Below the pieces are notes generated by a model, which worked only from the letters and a program-made list of their open reading frames with translations, did not search any database and was not told where the DNA came from. DNA of 32,209 nucleotides from a virus. The position numbers were made by a program, and so were the translations under genes. The stretch is from positions 1 through 32,209 of IMG/VR virus record IMGVR_UViG_3300036885_000257, one strand, 5' to 3'. This document shows positions 5,790 to 25,660 of the stretch, in pieces; within the stretch, counting starts at the first letter, position 1, and every line of letters starts with the position of its first letter.

Positions 5790-6302
5790 ATGGCTTTTCA
5801 ATCACGTTATGAAGCTACCAGTTACTTGTCAACGAATGACTTGTCTGGTACAAATTATCCAGGACCTATTTTCATGAAACTGGATACCAGCACAAACGCA
5901 AATTTTCCACAGGTAGAACCATGCACAGCAAGCGTCAATCCTGAAGGTGTTCTTGAAAACGCTCCTGGTGCACAGATGCCAGCTGCTATTTCTTATACTG
6001 GTATCACTAAGATCGTTGTGAACGGTGTTTATACTGCTGGTCAGTTGCTGATGTCAAGCGGTTCTGGTGTTGCAACAGCAGCAAGTGGAACTGGGCAGTA
6101 TGCAAGGGGCGTTCAGTTGGAGAATTCAATAGCAGCAGGCGATATTGTTGCAATGCGTTTTGTTGACAATATGCTTGGTGTGTCTGGTATTTCTGGTTAT
6201 TCTGGTATTTCAGGTGTAAATGGAACTTCTGGATATTCAGGAACTTCTGGATATTCAGGAACTTCTGGATATTCAGGAACTTCTGGATATTCAGGAACAT
6301 AA
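5790..6302 (+). CDS. Capsid decoration protein (DUF2190-like) with a Gly-X-Ser tail
   Basis: Residues about 45-128 fit the DUF2190 head-decoration pattern: a short beta-rich domain with ITKIVVNGVYTAGQLLMSSG, then GQYARGVQLENSIAAGDIVA. Such proteins sit on the outside of the capsid, commonly as trimers, and stabilise it. From residue 132 to the stop the chain is only Gly-X-Ser/Asn triplets, ending in identical GTSGYS units. The tail is coded by an exact 18-base tandem repeat. The gene lies between the protease/scaffold and the major capsid gene, where Mu-like and other phages place decoration proteins, with AAGGAG before the ATG and a hairpin terminator after it. The surface location of the tail is inferred. 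Confidence 0.72.
   Translation: MAFQSRYEATSYLSTNDLSGTNYPGPIFMKLDTSTNANFPQVEPCTASVNPEGVLENAPGAQMPAAISYTGITKIVVNGVYTAGQLLMSSGSGVATAASGTGQYARGVQLENSIAAGDIVAMRFVDNMLGVSGISGYSGISGVNGTSGYSGTSGYSGTSGYSGTSGYSGT
6222..6293 (+). repeat. Exact 18-bp tandem repeat, four copies
   Basis: The unit GGAACTTCTGGATATTCA (encoding GTSGYS) occurs four times without a mismatch at 6222, 6240, 6258 and 6276, followed by a truncated GGAACA just before the stop. Identity at silent positions indicates recent expansion or homogenisation. Confidence 0.95.
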
Positions 6303-6305
6303 TAT

Positions 6306-6338
6306 AAAGACTATGTAGGCTCCAGCCAATAGTCTTTT
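6306..6338 (+). terminator. Rho-independent terminator after the decoration gene
   Basis: AAAGACTAT (6306-6314) pairs perfectly with ATAGTCTTT (6329-6337), the loop can form a small inner GGC/GCC stem, and the structure ends in TTTT. It lies four bases after the decoration gene stop and just before the capsid ribosome binding site. Confidence 0.7.
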
Positions 6339-6359
6339 CACAAACAACAAGGAGTTATT

Positions 6360-7388
6360 ATGTCTTTTCCTGCTATGACAAGTATTCTGGTTCGTGGAGC
6401 ACTCCAGAATGTAAGCATACTGTATCGCAATGCAAGTTACATTGCTGACAGTATTTTCCCGCTCATCAACGGTCTAAATTATCAGACCAAGATCACGAAA
6501 TACGATAAGCATCCCTGGTTCGCACTTGGCGAAGACCTTTATCGTGCAGAAAACACAACTGCAAAGCGTATTGACATGACAGTCCAGACACAGAATTTAG
6601 ATCCCAGAGAAATTGCTGCTGCTGGCGTTGTGTCAGATGAATTGTTCTTTGCTTCGAACCAACCTGGCAATCTGCCAGTTCAGCCGATTTCAGACACGAT
6701 TCTTATGATCTCTGACAAGATCGATCGTTTCAGAGAAAAGCTTGTTGCTGAAACCATCTATGGTGCAAGTGACAAGTATGGCGCAATCACTTGGGCTGAT
6801 GGTGCATCTGGTGGAACAGCCCCATCTGGTGGAACTGGAAAATGGGCTGCAGCAGACACGACAAACACAATCATCTTTGACATTGAAACAGCAAAGGCAG
6901 CAATCCTTAGCAAGACAGGTATCCTGCCCAATGTCTTAATGCTTGATTACACAACATTTCAGAAAATCAAAGCAAATGCAGTTGCTTTGGGTGGTGTGTT
7001 TGACAGGATCAAGTATACACAGACTGGCATCATGACTGAACAGCTCTTAGCATCTCTGCTTGGACTTGATGAAGTCATCATTGGTAAGGCTGTTTATACT
7101 GCAGACAAAGAAACGAAGGGCAACACGGTCACGACAATGAAGTACATTTGGGATCCGAATGCTTCTGGTCATGCTTTCTTGTACTATCGTCCTGCAGCTG
7201 CTGGTCTTAAACAGGTTTCGCCTGGTTATCAGTACCGTGTTGCTTACGATGGACAAACATGGAGAAGGATGATGACGTATCGTGAAGAGTGGTTGCATCA
7301 TAGTGTTTATGAAGTTGCAGAATGGGTTGACATTGCACCAGTGTCTACTGATGTTGGGTACCTCTGGAAACAGACGTATACAGCTTAA
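6360..7388 (+). CDS. Major capsid protein
   Basis: A 342-residue protein in the Mu gpT position, between decoration and gp36 genes. The sequence has the features of an HK97-fold capsid protein of the group that needs no large N-terminal prosequence: an N-terminal helix region (residues 1-35), an extended KYDKHPWFALGEDLYRAENT segment resembling an E-loop, a long acidic spine-helix region DTILMISDKIDRFREKLVAE, and a beta-rich A-domain with ILPNVLMLDYTTFQKIKAN and the late RVAYDGQTWRRMMTYREEW. It would form the capsid shell. The ATG is preceded by AAGGAG. Terminators stand on both sides of the gene. Family is judged from pattern and position rather than from a specific motif. Confidence 0.85.
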   Translation: MSFPAMTSILVRGALQNVSILYRNASYIADSIFPLINGLNYQTKITKYDKHPWFALGEDLYRAENTTAKRIDMTVQTQNLDPREIAAAGVVSDELFFASNQPGNLPVQPISDTILMISDKIDRFREKLVAETIYGASDKYGAITWADGASGGTAPSGGTGKWAAADTTNTIIFDIETAKAAILSKTGILPNVLMLDYTTFQKIKANAVALGGVFDRIKYTQTGIMTEQLLASLLGLDEVIIGKAVYTADKETKGNTVTTMKYIWDPNASGHAFLYYRPAAAGLKQVSPGYQYRVAYDGQTWRRMMTYREEWLHHSVYEVAEWVDIAPVSTDVGYLWKQTYTA

Positions 7389-7404
7389 TTAGCCATTGCG
7401 TAAG

Positions 7405-7441
7405 AAACAAGGGGGTTGATGGCCTCGGCCCCCTTGTTTTT
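7405..7441 (+). terminator. Strong rho-independent terminator after the major capsid gene
   Basis: AAACAAGGGGG (7405-7415) pairs with CCCCCTTGTTT (7429-7439) as a perfect 11-bp stem with a 13-base loop, followed by a T run. This is the most stable hairpin I found in the window. Confidence 0.85.
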
Positions 7442-7455
7442 AACAAAGGAAAACC

Positions 7456-7947
7456 ATGTCAAGTTATTGCGACAAATCAGATCTAAAGAATGCTATACCA
7501 GAAATATACCTTAAACAGCTAACTGATGACGCTGATACAGACGATATTGATGATGAAAAACTTGATGCTGCAATTCTAAAGGCAAGCGACTATATCGATG
7601 GTTATTTAAAGGGCAGATACCCTACGCCAATACCAGGGACTATTCCTGTTCTTATTGTTGACTTAGCAATCAGACTAAGTGTTTATTTCCTATTCAAACG
7701 TTCCTTATTGGTTACTTTACCAGATCCAATTAAGGAAGACTGGAAGGACACGAACAATGTTCTAATAGGCATTCAGAAGGGGAAAATAAACCCCTTTGAA
7801 GCAACAGATGAACCAGTGTTCTTTGCAACAAACAAGACACCAGCACAAAAGTTATTTACTGACACACCAGTTCTGCCATCAGGAACACCAAGTATGTTGG
7901 GTTCTGTAAGTCAAGGACAAAACAACTGGAATAATTACTTAGTATGA
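7456..7947 (+). CDS. Mu gp36-like head-tail connector (DUF1320)
   Basis: The N-terminal 75 residues follow the DUF1320 pattern: a YCDKSDLKNAIPEIYLKQLT start, an acidic segment, then LDAAILKASDYIDGYLKGRYPTP in two coupled motifs, and IVDLAIRLSVYFLF. Members occur directly after the capsid gene in Mu-like phages and are thought to act at the head-tail joint. The C-terminal 60 residues are less conserved and rich in Pro, Thr and Asn. The ATG follows AAAGGAAA, and the TGA stop overlaps the ATG of the next gene (ATGA), so translation is probably coupled. It is the first gene after a strong terminator. Confidence 0.8.
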   Translation: MSSYCDKSDLKNAIPEIYLKQLTDDADTDDIDDEKLDAAILKASDYIDGYLKGRYPTPIPGTIPVLIVDLAIRLSVYFLFKRSLLVTLPDPIKEDWKDTNNVLIGIQKGKINPFEATDEPVFFATNKTPAQKLFTDTPVLPSGTPSMLGSVSQGQNNWNNYLV

Positions 7948-8492
7948 TAATGGGAAAATTACAAGCAGCAATTTTAGATCGTCTAAAAGACCGTGGGCTT
8001 GATGTCCGTGAAATTGCATTCAAAGACTTGATAGACGGTACATTGAACTTGACAAGACCTGCAGCAAACATTACGTTCAACAACGCATCTGCTAAAAAAG
8101 TTACAATGTACACTTGGAAATACGTAACAACTATTAGTCTATTGCTTGTCATTCAATGGTTGAAAGCTGGTCCAGTTGGCGATGCACAAAGAAAGCAACA
8201 AATATACGACCTTATAGAAGGTATTTCTAATTACTTAAGTATGCAAGACTTTGGTTTAGAATTAGAAACACCTTTATACCCTTTAGGTTTTAACAACATA
8301 ACGACTATGAAACTGGCAAAAGCTGGTTATCAACTATACGAACTAAGGTTCTGGACAGCATGGAACGTTACAAAAGAAGATATGTACCCAAATTCTTTAG
8401 ACTTGAAAACTATTGTGACAGAATTCACATTAGAACCAGAAGATGCCAATGCTGAACCGCCACAGGGCGGCGATGTTATAGATCTTACATAA
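7944..8492 (+). CDS. Mu gp37-like protein (DUF1834)
   Basis: A 182-residue protein matching the Mu gp37/DUF1834 family by length, position and pattern: a variable N-terminus, the YTWKYVTTISLLLVIQW strand, RKQQIYDLIEGISNYLSMQD with the following FGLELETPLYPLGFNNI, and YQLYELRFWTAWNVTKED. The family is a head-tail joining or tail terminator-type component of contractile Mu-like tails; its exact role is not settled. Two starts are possible, ATG 7944 (overlapping the previous stop) and ATG 7950; the overlap favours the first. The C-terminal 25 residues are acidic and proline-rich. Confidence 0.72.
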   Translation: MIMGKLQAAILDRLKDRGLDVREIAFKDLIDGTLNLTRPAANITFNNASAKKVTMYTWKYVTTISLLLVIQWLKAGPVGDAQRKQQIYDLIEGISNYLSMQDFGLELETPLYPLGFNNITTMKLAKAGYQLYELRFWTAWNVTKEDMYPNSLDLKTIVTEFTLEPEDANAEPPQGGDVIDLT

Positions 8493-8522
8493 GTTTCGTT
8501 GAAATAACAAAAGGAGACGAAA

Positions 8523-10007
8523 ATGAGTTCACCAAACATTACGACAAGTCAAATACCTAACACAAGGGTCCCTGGTTTCTATGGACAAGAAAATACGAAT
8601 AATGCCCTGCCTGGACTAACACCATCGTCTGATTCATTGTGCCTTATAGCACAGATGCTTTCAACTGGTACTGTAGCTGCTAAAACGCCAACTAAAGTTT
8701 TCAGTGATGCTGATGCTGCACTGTTCTTTGGGACTGGTTCTATTGCACATTTATCCGCAAGGGCAGCTTTACAATCAAATCCCTACATTAATCTTTCAGT
8801 TGTAGGTGTTGCTGATTCAGGTTCAACAAAAGCTGCTGGTTCAATTACAGTCACAACTGCAGCAACATACACTGCAGGACAAATCAATCTTTGGATTGGT
8901 GATGTGATGGTTTCAACAGGTGTTGCTTTAACTGATACAGCAAACAACATTGCAAGTAATTTGAAACTGGCACTTGACCAAGTAGCAATTTATCTGCCAG
9001 TCACATACATTCTTTCATCTGCTGTTATTAATTTCACAGCAAGAAATGCTGGAACATTAGGAAACAAAACAGTTATTTCTGCAGTTACCACATCTGATGC
9101 AGTACTTACAGTAGTTACTATGGCTGCTGGTTCAACAGACCCCGATGTTGGTGCATACGGAACAGCTGGAACAGTTCTTGCATCTGTTGTTGCTGGAGGC
9201 TATACTATTTTCATTTCAACACTGAATGATGCAACAAACCTTGGTAAAATAAAGACCATGCTTGCATTTGCATCAAATCCTGTTGAACAGCGAGGTTGCA
9301 TCTGTGTCTTTGCAGGCAACAATAATTATTCTGGTGTGTCTGGTTATTCTGGACTTTCAGGGTTCGAACAGACAACTGCTGCATTGAATGAAGGTAGAAT
9401 GACTGGTGGTTTCATCAGTTATGCAACTGGCAATTTGTCAAGAACTGAATCATATAAAGGTGCTGCAGGTTATGCTGCTATGCTTGCTTCTACTGCAGAT
9501 CCTGTTGTCCCTTATGACGGTTTACCAATTGCAAATATTTCTGCCCCAAACGTTGCTGACAGGTTCACATGGGCACAGAAAGAAAGCATGTTGCAGAATG
9601 GTGTTGCACCTCTTGCAGTAATTCCTGGTGAACAGGTTGCTATTGTAAGGGCAATTTCAACATACACACTAAACAGTTCTGGTGTGCCTGATCCCACATT
9701 GCTTGATATCAATACGCTTAGAACACTTGACTATGTCAGAACACAGGTAAGAACAAGAATTACGAACGTGTTTCAAAGGTCAAAACTGAATGCAAGAACA
9801 GTAAAGCTTATTAGGGCTGAAGTTCTTGATGTTCTGTATGTCTTACAACAGGCTGAAATAGTTCAGAATGTTTCGACATATGAATCTGGTGTGCTTGTTG
9901 AACAGGACTTAAGCGACACAACACGTGTAGACATTGCCATTCCGACAAATATTGTTTCTGGGTTACACGTAATAGGGGCTGTGTTTAACTTAATATTGGG
10001 TATATAG
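8523..10007 (+). CDS. Contractile tail sheath protein, Mu gpL-like
   Basis: A 494-residue protein with the Mu gpL sheath pattern: NITTSQIPNTRVPGFYGQEN at the start, SLCLIAQMLSTGTVAAKTPT, then ALFFGTGSIAHLSARAALQ, and a C-terminal part with RIIT-type strands and VRTRITNVFQRSKLNARTVK, followed by a beta strand end (RVDIAIPTNIVSGLHVIGAV). It forms the contractile outer cylinder, which places this phage among myoviruses. Odd feature: residues 269-280 read YSGVSGYSGLSG, a short piece of the Gly-X-Ser repeat in the middle of the protein. The gene has a good AAGGAG site and is followed by the tube gene. It uses a TAG stop. Confidence 0.87.
   Translation: MSSPNITTSQIPNTRVPGFYGQENTNNALPGLTPSSDSLCLIAQMLSTGTVAAKTPTKVFSDADAALFFGTGSIAHLSARAALQSNPYINLSVVGVADSGSTKAAGSITVTTAATYTAGQINLWIGDVMVSTGVALTDTANNIASNLKLALDQVAIYLPVTYILSSAVINFTARNAGTLGNKTVISAVTTSDAVLTVVTMAAGSTDPDVGAYGTAGTVLASVVAGGYTIFISTLNDATNLGKIKTMLAFASNPVEQRGCICVFAGNNNYSGVSGYSGLSGFEQTTAALNEGRMTGGFISYATGNLSRTESYKGAAGYAAMLASTADPVVPYDGLPIANISAPNVADRFTWAQKESMLQNGVAPLAVIPGEQVAIVRAISTYTLNSSGVPDPTLLDINTLRTLDYVRTQVRTRITNVFQRSKLNARTVKLIRAEVLDVLYVLQQAEIVQNVSTYESGVLVEQDLSDTTRVDIAIPTNIVSGLHVIGAVFNLILGI
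9327..9362 (+). repeat. Short Gly-X-Ser insertion within the sheath gene
   Basis: These 12 codons encode YSGVSGYSGLSG, flanked by Asn-rich (FAGNNN) and FEQTT sequence. The peptide matches the repeats of the fibre and decoration genes. It sits between two predicted structured parts, so most likely on an exposed loop. Confidence 0.8.
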
Positions 10008-10073
10008 AAACTATAAGGTAGGACATTTAAGCATGCCCTACATAACACGTTTTAATTCGAGAAAGGACTAAGT

Positions 10074-10442
10074 ATGGCTTTATACATTACAAGGGCAATG
10101 TTATCAGTGAATGGAACAGACATCACTGATTTCAAGGCTGTCACAGAAAAATCAAGAAAGCTCAGGAAAGCAGTCCCACTGATGTACAAGACAGGTGCTG
10201 CTGAACTAACACAACGTTTTACAGTTGATGTTGAATATGTTGTTCCAAGAACGACACCAGAATTTGACTTTGACTCTGTCACTGCTGGAACACTGGTCAT
10301 TGACTATGATTCAGGTGAACAAGTTCGTTTTGGTGGTGTTCACACTGAAGATGTTGGTGATGCAAAAGCAGATGGTGAAAATGAACTGACAAGGGTCATT
10401 GCATTTGTCTGTGAAACAAGAAACGGTTCAACAGGGGCATAA
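10074..10442 (+). CDS. Tail tube protein, in Mu gpM position
   Basis: A 122-residue beta-rich protein directly after the sheath gene and before the tail chaperone, the position of the tube protein in Mu-like phages. The N-terminus (YITRAMLSVNGTDITDFKAV), the basic loop EKSRKLRKAVPLMYKTG and the alternating strands TQRFTVDVEYVVP and TLVIDYDSGEQVRFGGVH fit a small tube fold. Tube hexamers stack inside the sheath and carry the DNA. The ATG follows GAAAGGA. Only three bases separate it from the chaperone gene. The call depends mainly on position, size and predicted beta content. Confidence 0.7.
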   Translation: MALYITRAMLSVNGTDITDFKAVTEKSRKLRKAVPLMYKTGAAELTQRFTVDVEYVVPRTTPEFDFDSVTAGTLVIDYDSGEQVRFGGVHTEDVGDAKADGENELTRVIAFVCETRNGSTGA

Positions 10443-10445
10443 TGC

Positions 10446-10961
10446 ATGTCTGATCTACTTCAGAAATTAAAACTTGGCAAAGACAGTGTCAAGTTAGTAA
10501 ACTTTCCTGGGACGACTCAAAAGGTGGCCTTGCAAATTCTTAGTCAACATGAATTGCAACTGGCCACTTTTAATACTGATCGCTTGTTTCAGACAGAAAA
10601 AATTACTGTCAACATGGTTAATGCAGATGACTGGGACCAAGAAAAAGCGACACAGATCTTGTTCTTAGCACTTAGGGACCCTGCTGACATGGAACAACCA
10701 ATTGCTAAGAACATTACTGAATTTCGAAAGGCCTTAACTAAGGATGAGAAAGAAGTTCTCATTGATGAATACCTTACATTTGAAAAAGATGTAAGTCCCC
10801 GGTCGGAAACACTATCGGACGATGAGTTCGATCGAGTAGTTTCTGACGTAAAAAAAAATGCAGACTCGATCTATTCGAGCAATTTCAGTACGAACATGCT
10901 GAAAAAGCTTGTGCATACTTTGGCAAACCAGCCACTGCCCTTACCTCAGGACAATGGTTAG
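10446..10961 (+). CDS. Tail assembly chaperone, short form
   Basis: This 171-residue acidic protein lies between tube and tape measure genes, where dsDNA phages with long tails carry a chaperone that is made in two lengths by frameshifting. The N-terminal part (residues 1-120) is helical and includes TEFRKALTKDEKEVLIDEYL. The zero-frame product continues past an A9 run to a TAG, but its last 30 residues are low in pattern and overlap a better-coded -1 frame. In other phages the short form and the fusion coat the tape measure before the tail tube polymerises. Function is from position and frameshift, since these proteins diverge quickly. Confidence 0.72.
   Translation: MSDLLQKLKLGKDSVKLVNFPGTTQKVALQILSQHELQLATFNTDRLFQTEKITVNMVNADDWDQEKATQILFLALRDPADMEQPIAKNITEFRKALTKDEKEVLIDEYLTFEKDVSPRSETLSDDEFDRVVSDVKKNADSIYSSNFSTNMLKKLVHTLANQPLPLPQDNG
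10850..10879 (+). promoter_or_regulatory. Programmed -1 ribosomal frameshift signal
   Basis: The heptamer A AAA AAA occupies 10850-10856 in the correct phase of the chaperone gene (GTA AAA AAA AAT). Eight bases after it, CTCGA (10865-10869) and TCGAG (10875-10879) form a perfect five-bp stem with a five-base loop. A slippery heptamer followed by a hairpin at this spacing is the standard -1 arrangement. Confidence 0.8.
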
Positions 10962-11044
10962 TCTTATTAGGTCTCGAATCTGCAGTAAAAGATCAAAAAG
11001 AAAATCCAAACAGAGTTACAGTATTAAGGAAACAAGATGGCTGA
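10856..11044 (+). CDS. Tail assembly chaperone, frameshifted C-terminal extension
   Basis: Slipping back one base at the A run opens 62 codons without a stop, giving a fusion of 137 + 62 = 199 residues. The extension has a protein-like composition, with CRLDLFEQFQYEHAEKACAY, then FGKPATALTSGQWLVLLGLE and SAVKDQKENPNR, and it ends in a TGA that overlaps the start of the tape measure gene by eight bases. Without it, about 75 bases before the tape measure gene would be unused and unusual for this compact operon. This matches the G/GT arrangement of lambda and comparable pairs in many tailed phages. It has no start codon of its own with a ribosome site. Confidence 0.78.
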   Translation, partial: KCRLDLFEQFQYEHAEKACAYFGKPATALTSGQWLVLLGLESAVKDQKENPNRVTVLRKQDG

Positions 11045-12641
11045 AAATGAAATTGGCCTAAAAATAAAACTGATGTATGGTGAATTAGATGCTGGTTTAG
11101 CACATTCACAAGCCAGTTTTAAGAAATTCAACAATGCAGTTAAAAGTGAATTTCAGTCAACAAAGAACATGCTTACAGGTAAGTTTTCTTTATTGGGTGG
11201 TCTTGTTACAGGTGCTGCAATTTATAAGACAATTAAAGACGTTGCAGCCTTTGACGATAGTGTAAGAAGACTTGCAACTGATACAGACATGACAACAGCA
11301 CAAATGCTTGCATTCAAACAGAAAATTCTTGATGTCGGAATTGAAACTGGTGTAAGTACAAGTAGCATAACAGAACTTTCAAAGTCTGCATATGAAGGTT
11401 CACACAATATGCAATTTGTAAATAAAGAACTTGCTTTCATGGCTAAATATGCACAGGCAACAGGAGCACCAGTATCTGAAATAGGCAGAGCATTTGGTGA
11501 ATTAAGCAGAGAAATGACACCTGACAAATTTGAATCAGCTATGAAATTCATTTACGCCTTTGGTGAAACTAAAGGTGCAAGAATGGAAGCAAAAGAATTT
11601 TTACCACAAGCAGGTAGTCTATTAAAAGCAGCAAGTGTCTATGTCAAATCAGGCGAATTAAAAAATGTCAACACAATGATGGCTGAAGCACAATTTTCTG
11701 GTTCACCAAGATCAGTAATGCTGGCATATAGAACAATGCACAAATATACAAAAAAAGAACTTGCATCAATTGGTATTACTGGTGCAACATCATTAACTGA
11801 AGCTATGGGTATGGTTCTTAAAAAGGGTGGCACAAGGGCATTAGTAAAAATGTTTGGTAGAAATGCAGTTCAGTCACTTCAGCCCTTGATCGTGGATGCT
11901 GAAGGGTTCAATAAGTCATTAGAAAAAGCAAGTAAGAATCAAGAAATAAACACAGGCAATGCAAAAACATTTTCAGCAGCAATGGAAAGACTACATGCAA
12001 CATGGTTAAGTATTGCTGACACACAACTTTCTGGTCCAATACAAGATCTCTCTAACTGGATTACAAAAATTTCAACAAATGGTGAATTAAAGAACTGGAT
12101 TTCAGAAGCAAAGGTTAATCTTGCAGGTCTTAAAGCTGTTGTAGTAGACATTGGTATTGCATTTGCTGCTTGGAAAATATTTAAAATGGGTGAAGCTGTT
12201 TATAGTGCTTTTAGTAAAAAAGGCAAGGGTGGTGTTAGTGCAGGTGGTATCCAGCAAGTCTATGTAGTGAATATGCCAGGTAGCGGTTTTGGTGGCCCTG
12301 GGGGTTTACCTGGAAAAGCTGCTGGTGGCGCAGGTGCTCTTGGTACTGCAGGCAAAGCTTGGATTGCAAGTTTGGGTGTTAGCGGAATTTCAAGTATTCT
12401 TTTGCCTGTTACAGGAATGGTTGTTGCAGCAGTATACGCCCATGAACAGTCAATGAATAGACAACTATCAGAACAAGCAAGAACTGCTGACTTGAACAAA
12501 GGACTTACAGACCCTAATAGGTATAATTTTACATTTGACGTAACTGATGATGCAAAGAAACTATTGACAGTTAAGCATATAGCAAAAGTTTCAGGAAAAG
12601 GTCAGCAAGGAACACCTGTTGACTATGCACAAGTTCATTAA
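11037..12641 (+). CDS. Tail tape measure protein
   Basis: A 534-residue protein after the chaperone pair. It opens with IGLKIKLMYGELDAGLAHSQ and a helical stretch, then the segment with ITELSKSAYEGSHNM and AKYAQATGAPVSEIGRAFGE that is typical of tape measure N-domains, a long helical middle, and hydrophobic helices near residues 375-390 (LKAVVVDIGIAFAAW) and 440-470 (SILLPVTGMVVAAVYA). A Gly/Pro-rich linker lies between them. Tape measure length sets tail length; at roughly 0.15 nm per residue this one predicts a tail near 80 nm, which is short. The start overlaps the chaperone extension, consistent with coupled translation. Confidence 0.85.
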   Translation: MAENEIGLKIKLMYGELDAGLAHSQASFKKFNNAVKSEFQSTKNMLTGKFSLLGGLVTGAAIYKTIKDVAAFDDSVRRLATDTDMTTAQMLAFKQKILDVGIETGVSTSSITELSKSAYEGSHNMQFVNKELAFMAKYAQATGAPVSEIGRAFGELSREMTPDKFESAMKFIYAFGETKGARMEAKEFLPQAGSLLKAASVYVKSGELKNVNTMMAEAQFSGSPRSVMLAYRTMHKYTKKELASIGITGATSLTEAMGMVLKKGGTRALVKMFGRNAVQSLQPLIVDAEGFNKSLEKASKNQEINTGNAKTFSAAMERLHATWLSIADTQLSGPIQDLSNWITKISTNGELKNWISEAKVNLAGLKAVVVDIGIAFAAWKIFKMGEAVYSAFSKKGKGGVSAGGIQQVYVVNMPGSGFGGPGGLPGKAAGGAGALGTAGKAWIASLGVSGISSILLPVTGMVVAAVYAHEQSMNRQLSEQARTADLNKGLTDPNRYNFTFDVTDDAKKLLTVKHIAKVSGKGQQGTPVDYAQVH

Positions 12642-12650
12642 GGACATAAA

Positions 12651-15958: not shown

Positions 15959-16335
15959 AATTTCAAATATCACAAGATCAAACAACAGGCTTAGGTAACT
16001 TGAACTTAACATCAAGTTCTGATTTGAAAACAAATATTTGGTTGTCATTGAATGTAAAAAAGGGTTCTTTATTTCAGGACCCTAACTTTGGCTTAGAACC
16101 AATTACAAAAATAACAGCAAGCAACATTCTGAAATTTCAACAAAACATTGTTTCGGCTTTGAAATGGTTAGTCTTAGCAGGTTCAGCAACTGCAACAAAC
16201 GTTTTAGTAGAACAAGATCTGACAGACATGACCAGACTTGATGTCAAAGTTTCAGTAACCCAGGCAAATGGCTATATAACTAATTACCAGCAATATTTTG
16301 CAGTTGGTGGCCCCAGTAAAACGATCACAGTCTAA
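15955..16335 (+). CDS. Baseplate wedge protein, Mu gp46-like (gp25/W type)
   Basis: A 126-residue protein matching the gp46/gpW-gp25 group. The first 45 residues include LKTNIWLSLNVKKGSLFQDP with NFGLE, the standard beginning of these small wedge proteins; the middle (LKFQQNIVSALKWLVLAGSA) is the conserved helix, and the end is a beta strand pair (MTRLDVKVSVTQANGYITNY). Wedge subunits anchor the sheath to the baseplate. The start overlaps the spike gene stop by four bases (ATGA) and the next gene follows after nine bases containing AAGGAG. Confidence 0.82.
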   Translation: MKFQISQDQTTGLGNLNLTSSSDLKTNIWLSLNVKKGSLFQDPNFGLEPITKITASNILKFQQNIVSALKWLVLAGSATATNVLVEQDLTDMTRLDVKVSVTQANGYITNYQQYFAVGGPSKTITV

Positions 16336-16344
16336 GGAGAATAT

Positions 16345-17472: not shown

Positions 17473-17481
17473 GGAGAAACT

Positions 17482-18861
17482 ATGTACACGAACAACGGTT
17501 ATCAAATCCCAGATATTGGCGAAGATCCTTGGCATGAAATCAATACGACATTAGAAGACATGACTGATGTATTGCCACCTGCAGGGACCAAATACGTTAA
17601 CAACGAGCATATCCACAACCATCTCGACGGCATTACATCGGGACCCCAAATAGTTATTAATGGGACCCAAGTCAATGTGCCCAGCATACCTACGAATTCA
17701 ATCGTCACAACTGACGGTTCAGGTAATCTAACTGGAATTTCTGGCAGCAGTGTTTCAGGTATTTCAGGTAAATCTGGTTATTCAGGTGTTGCCGGTGCAA
17801 CTGGAACATCTGGTTATTCAGGTCATTCTGGTTATTCAGGCGTAGGTTCACAGGGAACCTCTGGCTATTCAGGCGTTGCTGGCGGAAATGGAACATCTGG
17901 TTATTCAGGAAAATCTGGTTATTCAGGTACAGGAAGTGCTGTTGTAGGATCTGGCTATGTGCCAGTAAGTAACGGTGCAACATATGTAGCAAGTGACATT
18001 ACTGATGTTGCAGGTGCAATTACAATTCAAAGTACAACAACAAATGGTGGTGACATTACTGTGTTAGCAGGACAAGACGGAACCATTATGCTTGCAAGTA
18101 CTTGGTATGCTGGTGGCAATGTAAGTCTATTAGCAGGAATATCGAACTTGTCTGTTGTATTAGACTCTGCTAATTCAGGTGGCAGTCAAAATACAATGAC
18201 ATTGTCAGCAGTTGGTAATAGTAATTCAATTAAAGTTCAAGCATCAGGCACTGATTCGTATGTAAGACTTGCAAGTGATACAGTGAACATCAGACTTGCT
18301 GACAGCATTGGCATCATAGCTGCAAATGACACTTACATAACATTAGACGGTACAAGTGACAAAGTGTCAGTACTTGCTGATAATTTTAGTGTAGAATCAA
18401 GCAATATTGACATAAAAAGTGGCACAATAAATAACATGACAATGAGTGCTACTGCAACAACACTTTCAAATGGTGCTGTATCAGCAAACTTGACAGCAAA
18501 TTCTATTACTTTGTTAGCAACTGGAAACACAAATGAAATTTTAATTTCAACTGCTGGTGGAACTGGATCACTTTTATTACTTAATGCAGGTTCGGGTGGT
18601 GGCAACAGAATGTCACTTCAAGCAGGTAATTACGAAGTCTATATTGACAGCACTGAAATTCAACTTAGTTCAGGTTCGTCTTATTATTATAAAATGAGTA
18701 ATTCAGGCATGGAAATACGGTCAAACACAATTAGTGCTACTGTAAATTCAATATACACCATTAACACAAGCAGATTTTCTCTTCCTGGGCTACCAACTTC
18801 GTCAAGTACTTTAGATGCTGGTATGCTTTGGAATGACACAGGAACAATAAAAATAAAATGA
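17482..18861 (+). CDS. Tail fibre protein with Gly-X-Ser stalk
   Basis: A 459-residue fibre in three parts. Residues 1-80 form the attachment end, with NNEHIHNHLDGITSG, a His-rich pattern common at the start of phage fibres. Residues about 84-155 are a Gly-X-Ser tract (SGISGKSGYSGVAGATGTSG and following). Residues 160-420 are a long run of short beta strands, Asn/Thr/Ser-rich, of the kind that builds trimeric beta-helices (VRLASDTVNIRLADS, LTANSITLLATGN). The end, FSLPGLPTSSSTLDAGMLWN followed by DTGTIKIK, is a widely found C-terminal fibre ending. The stop overlaps the glycosyltransferase start by four bases. Receptor specificity cannot be read. Confidence 0.8.
   Translation: MYTNNGYQIPDIGEDPWHEINTTLEDMTDVLPPAGTKYVNNEHIHNHLDGITSGPQIVINGTQVNVPSIPTNSIVTTDGSGNLTGISGSSVSGISGKSGYSGVAGATGTSGYSGHSGYSGVGSQGTSGYSGVAGGNGTSGYSGKSGYSGTGSAVVGSGYVPVSNGATYVASDITDVAGAITIQSTTTNGGDITVLAGQDGTIMLASTWYAGGNVSLLAGISNLSVVLDSANSGGSQNTMTLSAVGNSNSIKVQASGTDSYVRLASDTVNIRLADSIGIIAANDTYITLDGTSDKVSVLADNFSVESSNIDIKSGTINNMTMSATATTLSNGAVSANLTANSITLLATGNTNEILISTAGGTGSLLLLNAGSGGGNRMSLQAGNYEVYIDSTEIQLSSGSSYYYKMSNSGMEIRSNTISATVNSIYTINTSRFSLPGLPTSSSTLDAGMLWNDTGTIKIK
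17731..17940 (+). repeat. Gly-X-Ser repeat tract of the first fibre
   Basis: About 70 codons of Gly-X-Ser/Asn/Thr triplets including six GYSG motifs, with some Gly-Ala-Thr and Gly-Gly-Asn variants. Silent codon choices differ between units, so this tract is older or more constrained than the decoration-gene repeat. Confidence 0.85.
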
Positions 18862-19517
18862 ACACAGTAAAAATATGTTGTCCTGTATATGATCAGATGA
18901 CTTGGGATGAGTCTATGTCTAAGTCGTCAATCGAAGCATTGAAAATAGACAAGAATCGCACCTTTGATTTTTCAACATCTATTTGTCAGTCAACATATAT
19001 TGCTGAAAACAGAAACATGCTGATTAAAGAATCAGCTGAAAATCAAGCAATCAAGCAGAAACTAAATCCAAAATTTACTCACTGGCTGTTTATAGACCAT
19101 GACGTTGCTTTTAGTTCATGGGACATTGAAAAGCTTTTAGCAGCAGACAAGGGCATTATTTCTGGTTGTTATCGTCCTAAAGACAAACCAGAACGTTTTG
19201 TAGCAGGATGGTGCAATGACGAAGGCAAAATCATGGACTATGTGCCTGCTTTAGACGTTGGTATTCTTGAAGTTGATTGGACAGGTGCTGGTTTTCTATT
19301 ATGCAAACGTGAAGCACTTGAAGCAATGGAATACCCATGGTATTGGTGTTCTGTTCTTAAATGTGGCAACAGGGCCCTGACGGTGGGTGAAGATGTCTTT
19401 TTCTGTTTGAATGCAAGAAGAAACTTAATAACTGTCTATCTTGACACAAATACAATCTTAAATCATGAGGGCAACAGATATCATGCGAATGTACAGAATC
19501 GCTTTATCAAAGCCTGA
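18858..19517 (+). CDS. GT-A fold glycosyltransferase
   Basis: A 219-residue protein with the GT-A pattern. WLFIDHDVAFS holds the metal-binding DxD at Asp80-His81-Asp82, IISGCYRPKD follows, then DWTGAGFLLCKREALEAMEY as the acceptor region, and GEDVFFCLNARR with NHEG near the end. Such enzymes transfer a sugar from a nucleotide donor. It is translated with the preceding fibre (ATGA overlap) and stands before the giant fibre, so a virion protein is a likely target, although modification of host glycans is possible. There is no membrane segment, so it acts in the host cytoplasm. Donor and acceptor are unknown. Confidence 0.8.
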   Translation: MNTVKICCPVYDQMTWDESMSKSSIEALKIDKNRTFDFSTSICQSTYIAENRNMLIKESAENQAIKQKLNPKFTHWLFIDHDVAFSSWDIEKLLAADKGIISGCYRPKDKPERFVAGWCNDEGKIMDYVPALDVGILEVDWTGAGFLLCKREALEAMEYPWYWCSVLKCGNRALTVGEDVFFCLNARRNLITVYLDTNTILNHEGNRYHANVQNRFIKA

Positions 19518-19920
19518 ACAGGTAGCGACAATCAATCAGAGACTTGCTGATGGAAGAGCAATCAGAGTCAACACACGTCTTAGAAACATTGAACTTGAAA
19601 TTATTTACACATGCTTGAATGAATTTGCTAAACATGTTCAGAAATGTGCTTCATATCTACAAGTTATCAAGCACATGAATGCTGTTCAAAAGATCGCTGA
19701 TACAATTCAATTCATTAATTTTTCAAAAAGCGATTTTGAGAATCTAATTGCTGGCTTTGAAATGACAAAGGGCAACAGACCAGATAGTTGGACAACAGCA
19801 ATTAATTTCTTTGAACAGATGGAAGGTCCTGAAGAAATTGAAATAGAAGATACAGTGCAAAAGCTAAAAGACGAAATAGACAGAATGGACAAACAAAATG
19901 TCGCTTACAAACCCAATTAA
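19483..19920 (+). CDS. Helical protein of unknown function upstream of the giant fibre
   Basis: About 145 residues, not recognised. It is mostly helical (NIELEIIYTCLNEFAKHVQK, AVQKIADTIQFINFSK), ending in a strongly acidic and then mixed-charge tail (EGPEEIEIEDT). The frame is open from ATG 19465, but that codon has no ribosome site; ATG 19483 follows GAGGG at 11-12 bases and is preferred, and ATG 19489 is possible. The reading frame overlaps the glycosyltransferase by 35 bases at its start and the giant fibre by 23 bases at its end. A fibre-assembly chaperone would fit the size, the helices and the position, but nothing in the sequence proves it. Confidence 0.6.
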   Translation: MRMYRIALSKPEQVATINQRLADGRAIRVNTRLRNIELEIIYTCLNEFAKHVQKCASYLQVIKHMNAVQKIADTIQFINFSKSDFENLIAGFEMTKGNRPDSWTTAINFFEQMEGPEEIEIEDTVQKLKDEIDRMDKQNVAYKPN

Positions 19921-22900
19921 ATATACTTTTTTTGGTCAAATAGTCCCTAAGGACAAGTTGCCAATTATTGACATTCAAACTGATGGCATGGCTTTTGGTA
20001 CTGTTGAATTAGACTTGCCAATAACTACTGTTTCGACTTTAACTGTTTCTTGTTTTCATTTGACAAAACCGACATCAACAGAAGACAGATGGTCCAGATG
20101 CTTACCTGAATTACAAGCACTATATACACCAATTGCTTTTTCATATGAACAACTGGCAACTGACTATTGGCTAATTCATTGGCAATTCAATCCGCAAGTA
20201 ATCGGTGTCAACGAACAGCACAACGACCTTTATTGGTCTATTGAATTCTTTGTTAATGAAGCAAACAATGCAACAATTCCACAGTCAAGTCCTAAAATTA
20301 TCATTCATACAATAGACGACATTGGCTATACAAGTTCAAGTTCTGGTTATTCTGGGGTTTCAATAGCAAAAGGTGATAGCGGATATTCAGGTCAATCTGG
20401 GTATTCTGGACTAAATGGCATGGCGTCATTTTCAGGATATTCAGGAACAAGTGGGTATTCAGGTCAATCAGGGTATAGCGGAATTTCAGGAACATTAGGG
20501 CATTCTGGATATTCAGGCGATTCTGGAATTTCAGGTATTGATGGTCAATCAGGTCGATCTGGTTATTCTGGAATTTCAGGCATTGATGGTCAATCAGGTT
20601 ATTCGGGTATTGATGGACGTTCTGGTTATTCTGGAATTTCAGGGTATTCAGGTCAATCTGGATATTCTGGAATTTCTGGTTATTCAGGAGCAGGTCAATC
20701 AGGTTATTCAGGAGCAGGTCAATCAGGTTATTCAGGAAATGATGGACAATCTGGATATTCAGGTTTTTCTGGCAAATCAGGGTTCAGTGGTAAATCTGGA
20801 TATTCAGGTCAATCAGGTTATTCAGGTTTTTCAGGCACTAATGGACAAGCAACATGGAATGACACAGCTGACACTTGGTTACGTTCAACATTTCCTAATA
20901 CAAATTATGGAACACAAACAAGTTTTTTTATTGAAGACCCATATATAACAGGATTATTGAAATTTGCAACACCATCTGTTGATGTAACTAATGCTTATCT
21001 TAGTTTATATCGCCTGTCGACATATACAAGTCCAGTGACAATATCTATTTATCGTTGTTTGCAAAACTGGAATGAGTCTGGTGGAACAGGCGCCACATGG
21101 AATAAATATGATGGAACAAATACATGGAACACTGCTGGTGCTTTAGGTTCAGGTACAGATTATGATCCCACACTTTGTGGTTCAATTACTACGACAGCAA
21201 CACCACAATTTTCATGCTATTTGAATGCTTATGGTGTGTCAATTCTACACCAAATGTTCACAGGAGCAATTTCTAATTACGGTTTTGTCTTGTTTGTGTC
21301 AACTACAGGGGCACAAGTTGAACTTGCAACAAAAGAAAATGCTGATTCAAGCGAATGGCCCACACTATTAACAGGTATGCAAGGGTTTAGTGGATATTCA
21401 GGAACTTCAGGATATTCAGGAAAATCTGGATATTCAGGGTATTCAGGAATTTCAGGACAAGCAGGTGGTGCAGGACAATCTGGATATTCAGGAATGTCGG
21501 GTGAAGTTCCGGGTGGGTCAGGCTATTCGGGAATTTCTGGATATTCTGGTGGGTCAGGTTATTCAGGACAATCAGGATATTCTGGAATAAATGGAAATTC
21601 TGGATATTCTGGTAGCAATGGACTTAGTGGATATTCAGGAACAAATGGAATTTCTGGATATTCTGGTGTCGGACAATCAGGTTATTCTGGACTAAACGGT
21701 ATTGCAGCAGCATCAGGATATTCTGGAACTTCAGGTTATTCTGGTAAATCAGGTTATTCAGGAATTTCAGGACAAGCAGGTGGTGCAGGACAGTCTGGAT
21801 ATTCTGGTCAATCAGGAATTTCAGGTTTTTCAGGTCACGTTGATGGTGCAGGATATGCTTGGGCTACTTCTTTTGATAGTACAAGTATTACAGGAGTTTC
21901 AGGAGCATTTGTAAAAATGCCCATTTGGGTTGGAACAGTCTTAAATGGATTTACTTGTGATGGTACTACATTTACCTGCATAACCCCTGGGACATATCTG
22001 ATTAATGCTGATTTTCCTTGTTTTGCCGAAACACGAAATTCTCTAATTGCTGTTAAAGTTTTTCAAAATAATGCACAAGGGACAAATCTTAAAGTATCAG
22101 AAATCTATTCAATTGTTAATCAACAACAAGAAATTTCATTAACAGGTTTACTTGATTTAGCAGTAAATGACACAATAGATTTCAGAGTTCAAGCAAATTC
22201 TACTAATGATGTTACTTTCATGTATTCTATGATGACTTTTACTGGGATCGTAGGACAATCAGGTTATTCTGGTCAATCAGGAACTGGTGTTTCGGGTTAT
22301 TCTGGACAATCAGGTTATTCTGGATCAACAGGAACTACTGGTCAATCAGGTTATTCAGGACAATCGGGTTATTCAGGATCAATAGGTTCTGTTGGTCAAT
22401 CAGGATATTCTGGGGAATCTGGTTATTCTGGAATTTCTGGTATTGTTGGTTTTTCTGGATATTCAGGACAAAGTGGTTACTCAGGCAAATCAGGTTACAG
22501 TGGTATAAGTGGATATTCAGGAATTTCTGGTTTCTCAGGTTCTATTGCTGGTATGGGTTATATGTCAGCATATGTTGACGGAGGTGCACCAGTCACTGTT
22601 ACTATTGATGCCAGTCCACATGCATTGGGAAGTTTCTGGAGATCAGGATTGTTGAATGGTTTCACTAATAATGGAACTACAATTACTTGTACTCTTGCAG
22701 GTGTTTATAAAATAAATGCCACATTTAGTTATACATCAAGTGCAGCAAACACATATAGTTCAATTGCACTTATGCTGAATGGCACACAACAACCAGATAT
22801 GGTTGCAGGAGTGTCTACTGTTGCTGGAACTCCAGGACAATATAGAGTCAATGCTTCATTGACAGGTGTAGTATCATTAGCAGTAAATGATGCAATAACG

Positions 22901-25660
22901 TTTAGCATCTATAGCACTCCAACTCATACACTAACACTTTATGATTGTCAAATAGCAATTGCAGGTATTGTTGGATTTTCTGGATATTCAGGAATTTCTG
23001 GATATTCAGGTCAATCTGGATATAGTGGAAAATCTGGATACAGTGGAATAAGTGGTTATTCAGGTCAATCTGGGTATTCAGGAACAAGTGGGTATTCAGG
23101 TGCATTAGGAACTTCTGGATACAGTGGAATTAGTGGATATTCTGGTTTTTCAGGATATTCAGGAATAAATGGAACATCTGGGTATTCAGGTCAATCTGGA
23201 TATTCTGGGCAATCTGGTTATAGTGGTATTTCAGGAATTAATGGCCAGTCAGGTTATTCAGGTCAATCAGGCAACAGTGGAATTTCTGGCTATTCAGGAA
23301 CTTCAGGATATTCAGGAAAATCTGGATATTCAGGGTATTCAGGGTATTCAGGAATAGATGGTCAATCTGGATATTCAGGGCAATCAGGAAATAGCACATC
23401 AGGTTACAGTGGAATAAGTGGTTATTCAGGTCAATCAGGATATTCAGGAATAAATGGAACTTCAGGTTATTCTGGACAGTCTGGATATTCTGGAATTTCA
23501 GGTTATTCAGGTCAATCAGGTACAAGTGGATATTCAGGACAATCTGGATATTCAGGTCAATCAGGTTATAGCGGTGAATCTGGATATTCTGGAGAATCTG
23601 GAACTTCAGGTTATTCTGGACAGTCTGGATATTCTGGAATTTCAGGTTATTCAGGATATAGTGGTGAAAGTGGTTATTCTGGAGAATCAGGATATTCAGG
23701 CTATTCTGGAATAAGTGGATATTCAGGACAATCTGGTTATTCTGGTCAATCAGGTGAATCAGGAATTTCTGGGTATTCAGGAACTTCAGGATATTCAGGT
23801 GAATCAGGTTATTCAGGTGAATCAGGAATTTCTGGGTATTCAGGTTTTTCAGGTTATTCTGGAATTTCTGGGTATTCAGGAACATCAGGATACAGTGGAG
23901 AATCAGGTATTTCTGGTTATTCAGGAATTTCAGGTTATTCAGGTATTTCTGGTTATTCAGGTATTTCTGGTTATTCAGGAATTTCAGGTTATTCTGGTTA
24001 TTCAGGTGAATCAGGTATTTCTGGATATTCTGGAGAATCTGGTTATTCAGGTATTTCTGGATATTCTGGAGAATCTGGTTATTCAGGTATTTCTGGATAT
24101 TCTGGAGAATCTGGTTATTCAGGTATTTCTGGACAATCAGGATATTCAGGATACAGCGGAATTAGTGGTTATTCAGGTAATTCTGGATATTCTGGTGATT
24201 CTGGACAATCTGGATATTCAGGTCAATCTGGTTATAGTGGTGAAAGTGGTTATTCAGGAATTTCAGGCTATAGTGGAGAATCAGGTATTAGTGGATATTC
24301 AGGAATTTCAGGCTATTCAGGACAATCAGGTACAAGTGGATATTCAGGTCAATCTGGTTATTCAGGACTAAGTGGTTATTCTGGAGAATCTGGTTATTCT
24401 GGTCAATCAGGATATAGTGGAATTTCAGGATATTCTGGTATTAGTGGCACAAATGGAATTAATGGAGATTCAGGCTATAGTGGAACTTCTGGAATTTCTG
24501 GTTATTCAGGAAAATCAGGCTATAGTGGAACTGATGGAACAAATGGGAATTCTGGTTATTCTGGAATTTCAGGAATAAATGGAACTAATGGAGAATCTGG
24601 TTATTCAGGAAAATCAGGTTACAGTGGAATAAGTGGATATTCAGGAATTGATGGAACAAATGGAACGTCTGGATATTCTGGTATTTCAGGTTATTCAGGA
24701 ACAAATGGTCAATCAGGTTACTCTGGAATTTCTGGAACAAATGGTAATTCAGGTTATTCTGGAATTTCTGGAATAAACGGAACAAATGGATCTTCAGGAT
24801 ATTCAGGAATTTCTGGAACTAATGGAGCAAATGGAGAATCAGGATATTCAGGCGCATCAGGAATAGGAACATCAGGTTACTCTGGACAATCTGGTATTAA
24901 TGGAATTTCTGGGTATTCAGGTATTTCAGGAACAAATGGCACATCTGGATATTCTGGTATTTCAGGTTATTCTGGAACTAATGGATCTTCAGGTTATTCT
25001 GGAACTAATGGATCTTCAGGTTATTCTGGAATTTCAGGAACAAATGGAACGTCTGGATATTCAGGAACATCTGGATATTCTGGTAATTCAGGATATTCAG
25101 GAACATCTGGATATTCTGGTAATTCAGGATATTCAGGAACATCTGGATATTCAGGAACAAATGGAACGTCTGGATATTCAGGAACGTCTGGATATTCAGG
25201 AACATCTGGCAAATCAGGATATTCAGGAACAAATGGAACGTCTGGATATTCAGGAACTTCAGGATATTCAGGAACGTCTGGATATTCTGGTAAATCGGGA
25301 TATTCTGGTGTCGGTACAAGTGGTTACTCAGGAAGTTCAGCAACACGAGTAAACGGAACAGCAAGTTCAGCAACACCAACACCTGATGTTTCAACAACAG
25401 ATCTTTATTATCTATCAGCACTTGCAGAAACAGCAACGTTTGGTGCCCCTACTGGTAGTCCATCTGATGGACAAAAACTTGTAATACGAGTTTATGATAA
25501 TGGTGGTGCCAGAACCCTTGCATGGAATGCAATTTATAAAGCAATAGGAATAACTTTACCAATAATAACTGTTGTGGGGTCTTACACATATGTCGGTTGC
25601 ATTTATAATGATGCGACAGATACTTGGGCTTGTGTAGCAACAGCAACAGGAGCAGGTTAA
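19898..25660 (+). CDS. Giant tail fibre with Gly-X-Ser stalks, DNRLRE-like and C1q-like domains
   Basis: A 1,920-residue frame without interruption. Layout: 1-145 attachment domain, also found alone in the 26206 gene; 149-315 repeat tract 1; 316-492 DNRLRE/CBM96-like domain (ADTWLRSTFPNTNYGTQTSF, LLKFATP, SSEWPTLLTG); 493-645 tract 2; 646-785 jelly-roll domain resembling C1q/TNF (GTYLINADFPCF, ISLTGLLDLAVNDTIDFRVQ); 786-883 tract 3; 884-1025 a second, related jelly-roll (GVYKINATFSYT, LTGVVSLAVNDAITFSIY); 1026-1811 tract 4; 1812-1920 a C-terminal cap of common phage type (DGQKLVIRVYDNGGARTLAW). The tracts are Gly at every third position, mostly GYSGXS, and contain no proline. It is most likely a long trimeric fibre; a glycan-binding role comes from domain resemblance only. 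Confidence 0.85.
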   Translation: MSLTNPIKYTFFGQIVPKDKLPIIDIQTDGMAFGTVELDLPITTVSTLTVSCFHLTKPTSTEDRWSRCLPELQALYTPIAFSYEQLATDYWLIHWQFNPQVIGVNEQHNDLYWSIEFFVNEANNATIPQSSPKIIIHTIDDIGYTSSSSGYSGVSIAKGDSGYSGQSGYSGLNGMASFSGYSGTSGYSGQSGYSGISGTLGHSGYSGDSGISGIDGQSGRSGYSGISGIDGQSGYSGIDGRSGYSGISGYSGQSGYSGISGYSGAGQSGYSGAGQSGYSGNDGQSGYSGFSGKSGFSGKSGYSGQSGYSGFSGTNGQATWNDTADTWLRSTFPNTNYGTQTSFFIEDPYITGLLKFATPSVDVTNAYLSLYRLSTYTSPVTISIYRCLQNWNESGGTGATWNKYDGTNTWNTAGALGSGTDYDPTLCGSITTTATPQFSCYLNAYGVSILHQMFTGAISNYGFVLFVSTTGAQVELATKENADSSEWPTLLTGMQGFSGYSGTSGYSGKSGYSGYSGISGQAGGAGQSGYSGMSGEVPGGSGYSGISGYSGGSGYSGQSGYSGINGNSGYSGSNGLSGYSGTNGISGYSGVGQSGYSGLNGIAAASGYSGTSGYSGKSGYSGISGQAGGAGQSGYSGQSGISGFSGHVDGAGYAWATSFDSTSITGVSGAFVKMPIWVGTVLNGFTCDGTTFTCITPGTYLINADFPCFAETRNSLIAVKVFQNNAQGTNLKVSEIYSIVNQQQEISLTGLLDLAVNDTIDFRVQANSTNDVTFMYSMMTFTGIVGQSGYSGQSGTGVSGYSGQSGYSGSTGTTGQSGYSGQSGYSGSIGSVGQSGYSGESGYSGISGIVGFSGYSGQSGYSGKSGYSGISGYSGISGFSGSIAGMGYMSAYVDGGAPVTVTIDASPHALGSFWRSGLLNGFTNNGTTITCTLAGVYKINATFSYTSSAANTYSSIALMLNGTQQPDMVAGVSTVAGTPGQYRVNASLTGVVSLAVNDAITFSIYSTPTHTLTLYDCQIAIAGIVGFSGYSGISGYSGQSGYSGKSGYSGISGYSGQSGYSGTSGYSGALGTSGYSGISGYSGFSGYSGINGTSGYSGQSGYSGQSGYSGISGINGQSGYSGQSGNSGISGYSGTSGYSGKSGYSGYSGYSGIDGQSGYSGQSGNSTSGYSGISGYSGQSGYSGINGTSGYSGQSGYSGISGYSGQSGTSGYSGQSGYSGQSGYSGESGYSGESGTSGYSGQSGYSGISGYSGYSGESGYSGESGYSGYSGISGYSGQSGYSGQSGESGISGYSGTSGYSGESGYSGESGISGYSGFSGYSGISGYSGTSGYSGESGISGYSGISGYSGISGYSGISGYSGISGYSGYSGESGISGYSGESGYSGISGYSGESGYSGISGYSGESGYSGISGQSGYSGYSGISGYSGNSGYSGDSGQSGYSGQSGYSGESGYSGISGYSGESGISGYSGISGYSGQSGTSGYSGQSGYSGLSGYSGESGYSGQSGYSGISGYSGISGTNGINGDSGYSGTSGISGYSGKSGYSGTDGTNGNSGYSGISGINGTNGESGYSGKSGYSGISGYSGIDGTNGTSGYSGISGYSGTNGQSGYSGISGTNGNSGYSGISGINGTNGSSGYSGISGTNGANGESGYSGASGIGTSGYSGQSGINGISGYSGISGTNGTSGYSGISGYSGTNGSSGYSGTNGSSGYSGISGTNGTSGYSGTSGYSGNSGYSGTSGYSGNSGYSGTSGYSGTNGTSGYSGTSGYSGTSGKSGYSGTNGTSGYSGTSGYSGTSGYSGKSGYSGVGTSGYSGSSATRVNGTASSATPTPDVSTTDLYYLSALAETATFGAPTGSPSDGQKLVIRVYDNGGARTLAWNAIYKAIGITLPIITVVGSYTYVGCIYNDATDTWACVATATGAG
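20336..20842 (+). repeat. Giant fibre Gly-X-Ser tract 1
   Basis: About 167 codons between the attachment domain and the DNRLRE-like domain. GYSG alternates with GQSG, GISG, GIDG and GKSG. Two GAGQS units break the three-residue phase near 20690-20720, which would put kinks in a triple helix. Confidence 0.9.
21374..21834 (+). repeat. Giant fibre Gly-X-Ser tract 2
   Basis: About 153 codons. The block GISGQAGGAGQSGYSG occurs twice, near 21447 and 21759, so a longer unit has been duplicated within this tract. It also carries the only GEVPGG variant, near 21500. Confidence 0.9.
22252..22545 (+). repeat. Giant fibre Gly-X-Ser tract 3
   Basis: About 98 codons separating the two jelly-roll domains. 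GQSGYSG dominates, with interspersed GSTGTTG and GSIGSVG variants. This linker is flanked by related sequences (FTGIVGQ before, and IAGIVGF before tract 4), suggesting domain plus stalk were duplicated together. Confidence 0.9.
24014..24121 (+). repeat. Exact 36-bp tandem repeat, three copies
   Basis: A unit encoding GISGYSGESGYS is repeated at 24014, 24050 and 24086 with no mismatch, then runs into a partial fourth copy. Neighbouring units differ at silent sites, so this is a recent local expansion. Confidence 0.95.
25064..25153 (+). repeat. Exact 36-bp tandem repeat, two and a half copies
   Basis: A unit encoding GTSGYSGNSGYS is present at 25064 and 25100 without mismatch, followed by a half copy from 25136. 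It is another recent expansion near the 3' end of tract 4. Confidence 0.92.

Follow-up and report, generated by a model that had tools for sequence, protein, structure and literature searches.

A serine-rich collagen-like repeat in the capsid decoration protein and tail fibres of an environmental phage

A Gly-X-Ser repeat recurs in four virion proteins encoded by IMG/VR virus record IMGVR_UViG_3300036885_000257, a linear stretch of 32,209 bases that is called the window in its full length below. These proteins are the capsid decoration protein, the tail sheath (as a short patch), the first tail fibre and the giant tail fibre. An earlier reading of the letters alone (the sequence-only reading) had noticed one repeat type on these otherwise unrelated proteins, and the repeat was confirmed in all four. 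Judged from alignments with relatives, it appears to be a collagen-like Gly-X-Y repeat with Ser in place of Pro or Thr, and no new module. We consider it likely that this proline-free Ser dialect of collagen forms trimeric rods on the capsid and the two fibres, possibly O-glycosylated. The proposal is based on the repeat itself, its strict triplet register, the homologous placement of canonical repeats in relatives, the two dialects found among environmental phages, and the co-occurrence of the repeat with GT2 glycosyltransferase genes. From these observations we infer a trimeric triple helix, the surface exposure of the window tracts and their function.

Register and composition of the repeat

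Gly occurs at nearly every third residue in each window tract. Tyr or Phe fills the X position in about 41% of the triplets and Ser the Y position in about 87%, and charged residues are few. The description of the tracts as proline-free is correct everywhere except for one Pro in tract 2 of the giant fibre. The enrichment in Pro and charge at X and Y that is typical of PF01391 collagen-like proteins, although not strictly defining for them, is not found in the window tracts. The Pfam Collagen profile (PF01391) matches three of the four proteins, with bit scores of 506 for the giant fibre, 26.9 for the decoration protein and 23.6 for the first fibre (curated cut-off 27.2), and the sheath has no match. 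Sequence profiles gave no Pfam match to an immunoglobulin-like (Ig-like) domain in any of the four proteins.

The decoration (cement) protein (5790..6302, plus strand; 170 amino acids, globular from 1 to 130) matches phrog_673 (4.6e-10). Its capsid-auxiliary identity rests on family and gene order, the gene being situated between those of the head maturation protease and the major capsid protein (MCP), like that of the 'capsid stabilizing protein' of the Mu-like Klebsiella phage MK388859. The Gly-X-Ser collagen-like C-terminal tail (6180..6299, plus strand; Pfam Collagen 4.2e-6) occupies residues 131-170 and comprises 13 triplets. All 12 of its 12 Gly-Gly spacings equal 3, and its last 4.3 hexapeptides are perfect 18-nucleotide repeats in the DNA. 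The longest Gly-X-Ser/Thr run of each protein was compared with 2000 residue shuffles of that protein; the run in the decoration tail is 8 triplets, and the shuffles reach at most 3. At 0.29 nm per residue (PMC3368898), the value used for all rod lengths, the decoration C-termini would form collagen-like trimeric hairs of ~12 nm (11.6 nm) on the capsid.

The first tail fibre (17482..18861, plus strand; 459 amino acids; phrog_366 and phrog_5073, tail fibre; Pfam Collagen 4.3e-5) contains an interrupted Gly-X-Ser stalk at residues 85-151 (17734..17934, plus strand), which ends near residue 151 and not at the residue 155 given earlier. Its longest run, 5 triplets, was reached in 0 of 2000 shuffles. 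The giant tail fibre (19898..25660, plus strand; 1920 amino acids) matches Pfam Collagen over 14 stretches (7.8e-156), and its longest unbroken Gly-X-Ser/Thr run is 110 triplets. Along the plus strand, collagen-like tract 1 (residues 147-318; 20336..20851) is followed by a CBM96 carbohydrate-binding module (20852..21376; PF24517, 1e-10, 42.1 bits, cut-off 26), tract 2 (494-653; 21377..21856), globular insert A (21857..22255), tract 3 (787-885; 22256..22552), globular insert B (22553..22963), the main tract 4 (1023-1815; 22964..25342; ~264 triplets, 260 of 263 Gly-Gly spacings equal to 3) and a C-terminal domain (25343..25657; phrog_3030, 1.1e-14). Inserts A and B are homologous to each other (29% identity). 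Their assignment as C1q-like was rejected, as no Pfam match above the cut-off and no PDB match was obtained. A stand-alone, repeat-free paralogue of the giant-fibre N-terminal domain (37% identity) is located at 26206-26637. In the proposed arrangement both trimeric fibres would have repeat rods as stalk segments. The giant fibre would contain ~355 nm of rod interrupted by globular modules, with ~230 nm contributed by tract 4 if it is triple-helical.

Chance is excluded as the source of the repeat in the decoration protein, the first fibre and the giant fibre. It has also to be considered that the tracts are disordered or weakly cross-linked low-complexity chains that act as flexible tethers and form no triple helix. 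GYSG resembles the reversible adhesive segments of RNA-binding proteins, and both the Pro-free, Tyr/Ser-rich composition and the low model confidence in the decoration tail are consistent with such chains. However, such chains would not be expected to keep Gly strictly at each third position through some 264 triplets, nor to be orthologous to canonical collagen repeats, and we regard this explanation as unlikely.

The sheath patch, GVSGYSGLSG (9333..9362, plus strand), occupies residues 271-280, slightly less than had been claimed, in a strand-helix (helix-capping) loop. In relatives the loop is shorter by 5 residues, and a homologous solved sheath exists (9khy). At 10 residues, or 3 to 4 triplets, the patch is too short to rank beside the other tracts. 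It is missing from the sheaths of five aligned relatives (L031, L032 and L153-L155), and no sheath with the repeat was found in the sequences flanking the MCP of its relatives. Since no other examined sheath has the repeat, the patch is probably incidental, and it may be a short loop of like composition with no separate role. It is quite likely a product of chance or a gene-conversion scrap, the real system being the decoration protein and the fibres, which is compatible with collagen rods on the latter proteins. The shortness of the patch, within a protein that assembles into hexameric rings, its lack in relatives and a DNA similarity explained by codon use all agree with this. On the other side, shuffling the sheath would give GxSGxSGxSG with a probability of ~1e-4, or ~0.003 across some 25 genes, which is unlikely though not overwhelming, and the patch has 12 nucleotides in common with the beginning of the decoration tail. 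Shared recombination of the patch with the other tracts was rejected, as the DNA likeness does not exceed a synonymous-codon null (module codon use). Spread of the repeat between genes by recombination is not supported by this comparison, and the decoration tail begins at a boundary common to relatives. The idea of a virion-wide coat fails at the sheath, which has the 10-residue patch alone.

Collagen-like repeats in relatives and in environmental phages

The closest relative by sheath is L031 (66% identity). The N-terminal domain of the window giant fibre is orthologous to the L031 and L032 fibres, and at the same point after this domain the L031 orthologue has an ordinary Pro/Thr collagen-like repeat. 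Where the window has the Gly-X-Ser stalk, the L031 fibre-1 orthologue has a short collagen-like run, GVQGATGVAGGAGSQGATGVAG. Both L031 fibres thus hold GATGVQG/GPxG-type repeats at the window positions. The repeat had been taken for a hexapeptide module of its own; because relatives have ordinary collagen-like repeats at the orthologous positions, we take the collagen-type triplet as its unit.

The window decoration protein is homologous to those of L031, L422, L460 and L473, and the canonical tails of all four start right after the globular domain, at the same boundary as in the window. An MCP search yielded 80 relatives (and no match among genome contigs), with the upstream neighbour of the MCP readable in 75. 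A clear collagen tail on this neighbour was found in one of the 75, L422 (168 amino acids, directly before the MCP). In L031, L460 and L473 the tail is carried by a second decoration homologue and a bare copy is retained; the presence of both forms suggests a mixed capsid surface. G168, the full record of L460, has collagen-like tracts on its decoration protein and fibre open reading frames (ORFs), a distribution like that of the window in canonical form. The collagen pattern on several proteins thus recurs among these related phages in its canonical dialect, with GYSG as a different spelling. The absence of the repeat from homologues, which the sequence-only reading had named as a point against itself, therefore applies to the sheath homologues and most decoration homologues, but not to the four decoration homologues with the canonical form. 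The decoration protein gave no match in named phages by tblastn, and phrog_673 gave one match in 50 repeat-bearing records. This family is not the usual carrier of the repeat elsewhere.

The placement of these repeats bears on the suggestion that GYSG is a surface display module, a peptide that itself binds host glycans, mucus or particles from the head, the sheath and the fibres. The repeat does occur on several virion proteins of exposed type, and PMC7602432 lists the collagen-like gp12 of SPP1 as a decoration protein for host adhesion. However, the collagen repeats at homologous positions differ in composition, so that GYSG lacks the conservation expected of a binding surface, and the sheath patch is missing from aligned relatives. 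The giant fibre moreover has a dedicated CBM96 module, which is a likelier sugar binder, on profile evidence, than the repeats. We therefore consider binding by the repeat itself improbable. The globular modules, CBM96 included, would probably do the binding, with the collagen-like rods as spacers and cover. The genomic association of the repeat is with glycosyltransferases, and the repeat may therefore carry sugar rather than bind it.

The sequence-only reading had also proposed tabulating the carriers of the repeat in phage and metagenome sequences. A GYSG pattern scan of viral contigs returned at least 120 stretches, and the dialect, carrier and repeat-bearing contig counts given here and below are drawn from among the matches listed. 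Long fibre-like ORFs make up most of the carriers, and more than one carrier is present in 12 of the 33 fetched records. Two sharply separated dialects are present, with 87 Ser loci (median 0.9% Pro), 24 Thr loci (18% Pro) and 6 loci between. AT-richness was rejected as the cause of Pro loss, there being no correlation with GC content (rho -0.05). The dialect is concordant across genes in 13 of 15 multi-gene genomes (6.3 expected by shuffling, p 5e-5), with fewer than 15 independent cases owing to genome relatedness. One dialect per genome is compatible with gene conversion and also with a shared modifying enzyme.

The survey also brought up some unusual ORFs. One of 3272 amino acids in L176 (G005; 3863-13678, minus strand) has ~2775 repeat residues, which would extend over ~0.8 micrometre if fully triple-helical. 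Two small proteins, in L206 (5688-6014, minus strand; 109 amino acids) and L215 (1717-2127, plus strand; 137 amino acids), end in GYTGPTG collagen tails and are possibly further decoration-like proteins of unrelated phages.

Glycosyltransferases and the stability of the rods

A glycosyltransferase-like gene (18858..19517, plus strand; 219 amino acids; phrog_1574, 3.4e-23) lies between the two window fibres. Its start overlaps the fibre-1 stop by ATGA, which, as read from the sequence, points to translational coupling. In L032 a GT2 gene occupies the matching slot. The window also has a GT2 glycosyltransferase gene (29783..31396, minus strand; 537 amino acids; PF00535, 8.1e-10, 39.3 bits). This ORF shares an N-terminal segment, DS[VI]QAKxHPEIANTxC, with the weakly HNH-like minus-strand ORF at 29010-29612, and the segment looks like one gene start duplicated onto the other.

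Among 50 contigs with the repeat, 37 have GT2 (PF00535), compared with 5 among 50 randomly chosen contigs of similar length. Counted by lineage it is present in 9 of 15, compared with the same 5 of 50 (p 2e-4), so that the excess survives lineage correction. Within the MCP family of the window, 3 of 8 records with collagen have GT2 and none of 34 others does (p 0.005), several of these records being fragments. Contigs picked for an S74-type fibre, which are also without collagen, have GT2 in 0 of 49; they are shorter on average, and the S74 pattern may favor some lineages. The distance from the glycosyltransferase gene to the repeat shows a strong overall difference (median 1.8 vs 5.7 kb). The counts for phrog_1574, 6 of 50 repeat-bearing and 2 of 50 comparison contigs, are an uninformative difference.

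O-glycosylation of the rods is suggested because Ser is present at nearly every Y position, a glycosyltransferase-like gene is coupled between the fibres, and a GT2 gene is present as well. A sugar on Ser, Thr or Tyr could stabilise the Pro-free helix and give the particle a sugar coat. We regard glycosylation of the window rods as plausible, while stopping short of favoring it.

Several observations weigh against glycosylated trimeric rods or against parts of this proposal. Few residues favour a triple helix without modification less than Tyr at X and Ser at Y do. Such a Tyr/Ser-rich helix should be weak, and a stabiliser would therefore be needed, for which sugar is the best candidate. Collagen is known to be stabilised by sugar on Thr (PMC3368898), and the bacterial collagen BclA carries glycosylation (PMC8968730). 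The Collagen scores of the decoration protein and the first fibre are slightly under the Pfam cut-off. AlphaFold models of the decoration protein and the sheath are poor (mean predicted local distance difference test, pLDDT, 44 and 41, and ~26 in the tail), the alignment being too shallow. The gene at 18858-19517 has no Pfam glycosyltransferase match, and its assignment rests on PHROG and on phage homologues annotated as glycosyltransferases. Of the 33 fetched repeat-bearing records, 16 form one related clade (clustered by shared genes). The proximity of glycosyltransferase gene and repeat rests largely on one clade and loses significance when lineages are counted (4 of 9 within 3 kb). Finally, L031 has repeats and no GT2.

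The last two points also fit unglycosylated rods, with glycosyltransferases that modify the host envelope or phage DNA and co-occur with the repeat through shared host-recognition islands of aquatic phages. In the passages at hand of PMC7029224 and PMC10202952, on pelagimyophages and Nanopelagicales phages, glycosyltransferases are read as host-surface or DNA modification, and collagen-like repeats and glycosyltransferases are both mentioned, unlinked. Conversely, the lack of GT2 in all 49 contigs with the other fibre type, and the overlap of the window glycosyltransferase-like gene with the fibre-1 stop, are not what this explanation would lead one to expect. We give it close to an even chance. 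A wider form of the glycosylation proposal is that many environmental phages wear O-glycosylated collagen, with sugar on Ser, Thr or Tyr replacing proline or hydroxyproline as stabiliser. The dialects would then reflect the specificity of phage-encoded glycosyltransferases that modify every collagen-like protein in the virion of a given phage, and a glycan coat would extend over head and fibres. We advance this tentatively and with more doubt than belief.

Gene order, known systems and significance

The window has a Mu-like contractile-tail order of head protease, decoration protein, MCP, sheath, tape measure, baseplate J and fibres. The MCP (6360..7388, plus strand; phrog_1005, 3.5e-45) is repeat-free. 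The tail sheath gene (8523..10007, plus strand) matches phrog_165 (8e-110) and Pfam sheath domains, and the baseplate J gene (16345-17472) directly precedes the first fibre. A single ORF of 961 amino acids at 2868-5753 apparently fuses a Mu F-like head morphogenesis domain with the head maturation protease. In L031, the N-terminus of the ORF at 4913-7423 is a histidine phosphatase domain (PF00300, 5.7e-37), and the rest resembles the window head maturation protease.

Collagen-like decoration proteins and prophage fibres are already established. SPP1 gp12 of a Bacillus phage is a predicted collagen-like trimer decorating the head (PMC7602432, PMC5292684), described as an elongated trimeric head spike. 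The window protein, a capsid decoration protein by family and gene order, likewise has a Gly-X-Y segment. It is set apart by architecture, its Pro-free repeat forming a C-terminal tail behind a domain from another family, whereas the gp12 motif is N-terminal. The E. coli O157 prophage fibres EPclA-D are collagen-like, and recombinant EPclA is a characterised trimer with a collagen triple-helical domain (PMC3368898). These fibres resemble those of the window in having a Gly-X-Y stalk between other domains. In contrast, nearly half of the X positions in EPcl tracts are Pro and charged residues are numerous, while in the window Pro is essentially absent and Ser dominates Y; the main window tract is also far longer. 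L031, L422, L460/G168 and L473 share the protein families, the boundary or position and the kind of repeat with the window. They differ in their Pro/Thr/Ala/Gln dialect, and some keep a second, bare decoration gene.

BclA of Bacillus spores (PMC8968730), a collagen-like surface filament with sugars, is the model proposed for the window. As in a BclA-type system, glycosyltransferase genes accompany the collagen gene in the window and are enriched among repeat-bearing contigs, L031 being an exception. BclA is a bacterial spore-surface protein whose glycosylation is known, whereas that of the phage is proposed here. Ig-like domains recur on phage head, tail and fibre proteins, according to the part of PMC7602432 that cites Fraser et al. 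2007. They are similar to the window repeat in that one module type recurs on unrelated virion proteins, but they are folded beta-sandwich domains and the window repeat would be a low-complexity rod.

As far as the literature found goes, four points are new. A single phage has the Pro-free Ser dialect on several of its virion genes, and the repeats of environmental phages divide into two dialects. C-terminal collagen tails recur in this family of decoration proteins, and collagen repeats are associated with glycosyltransferases. Viral and bacterial collagen is usually explained by proline and charge, and a widespread Pro-free Ser dialect asks what holds the helix together. The enrichment of glycosyltransferases with the repeats offers a testable answer. 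If this answer is true, phage glycosyltransferases that are now assumed to modify the host surface or DNA would have a role in coating the virion.
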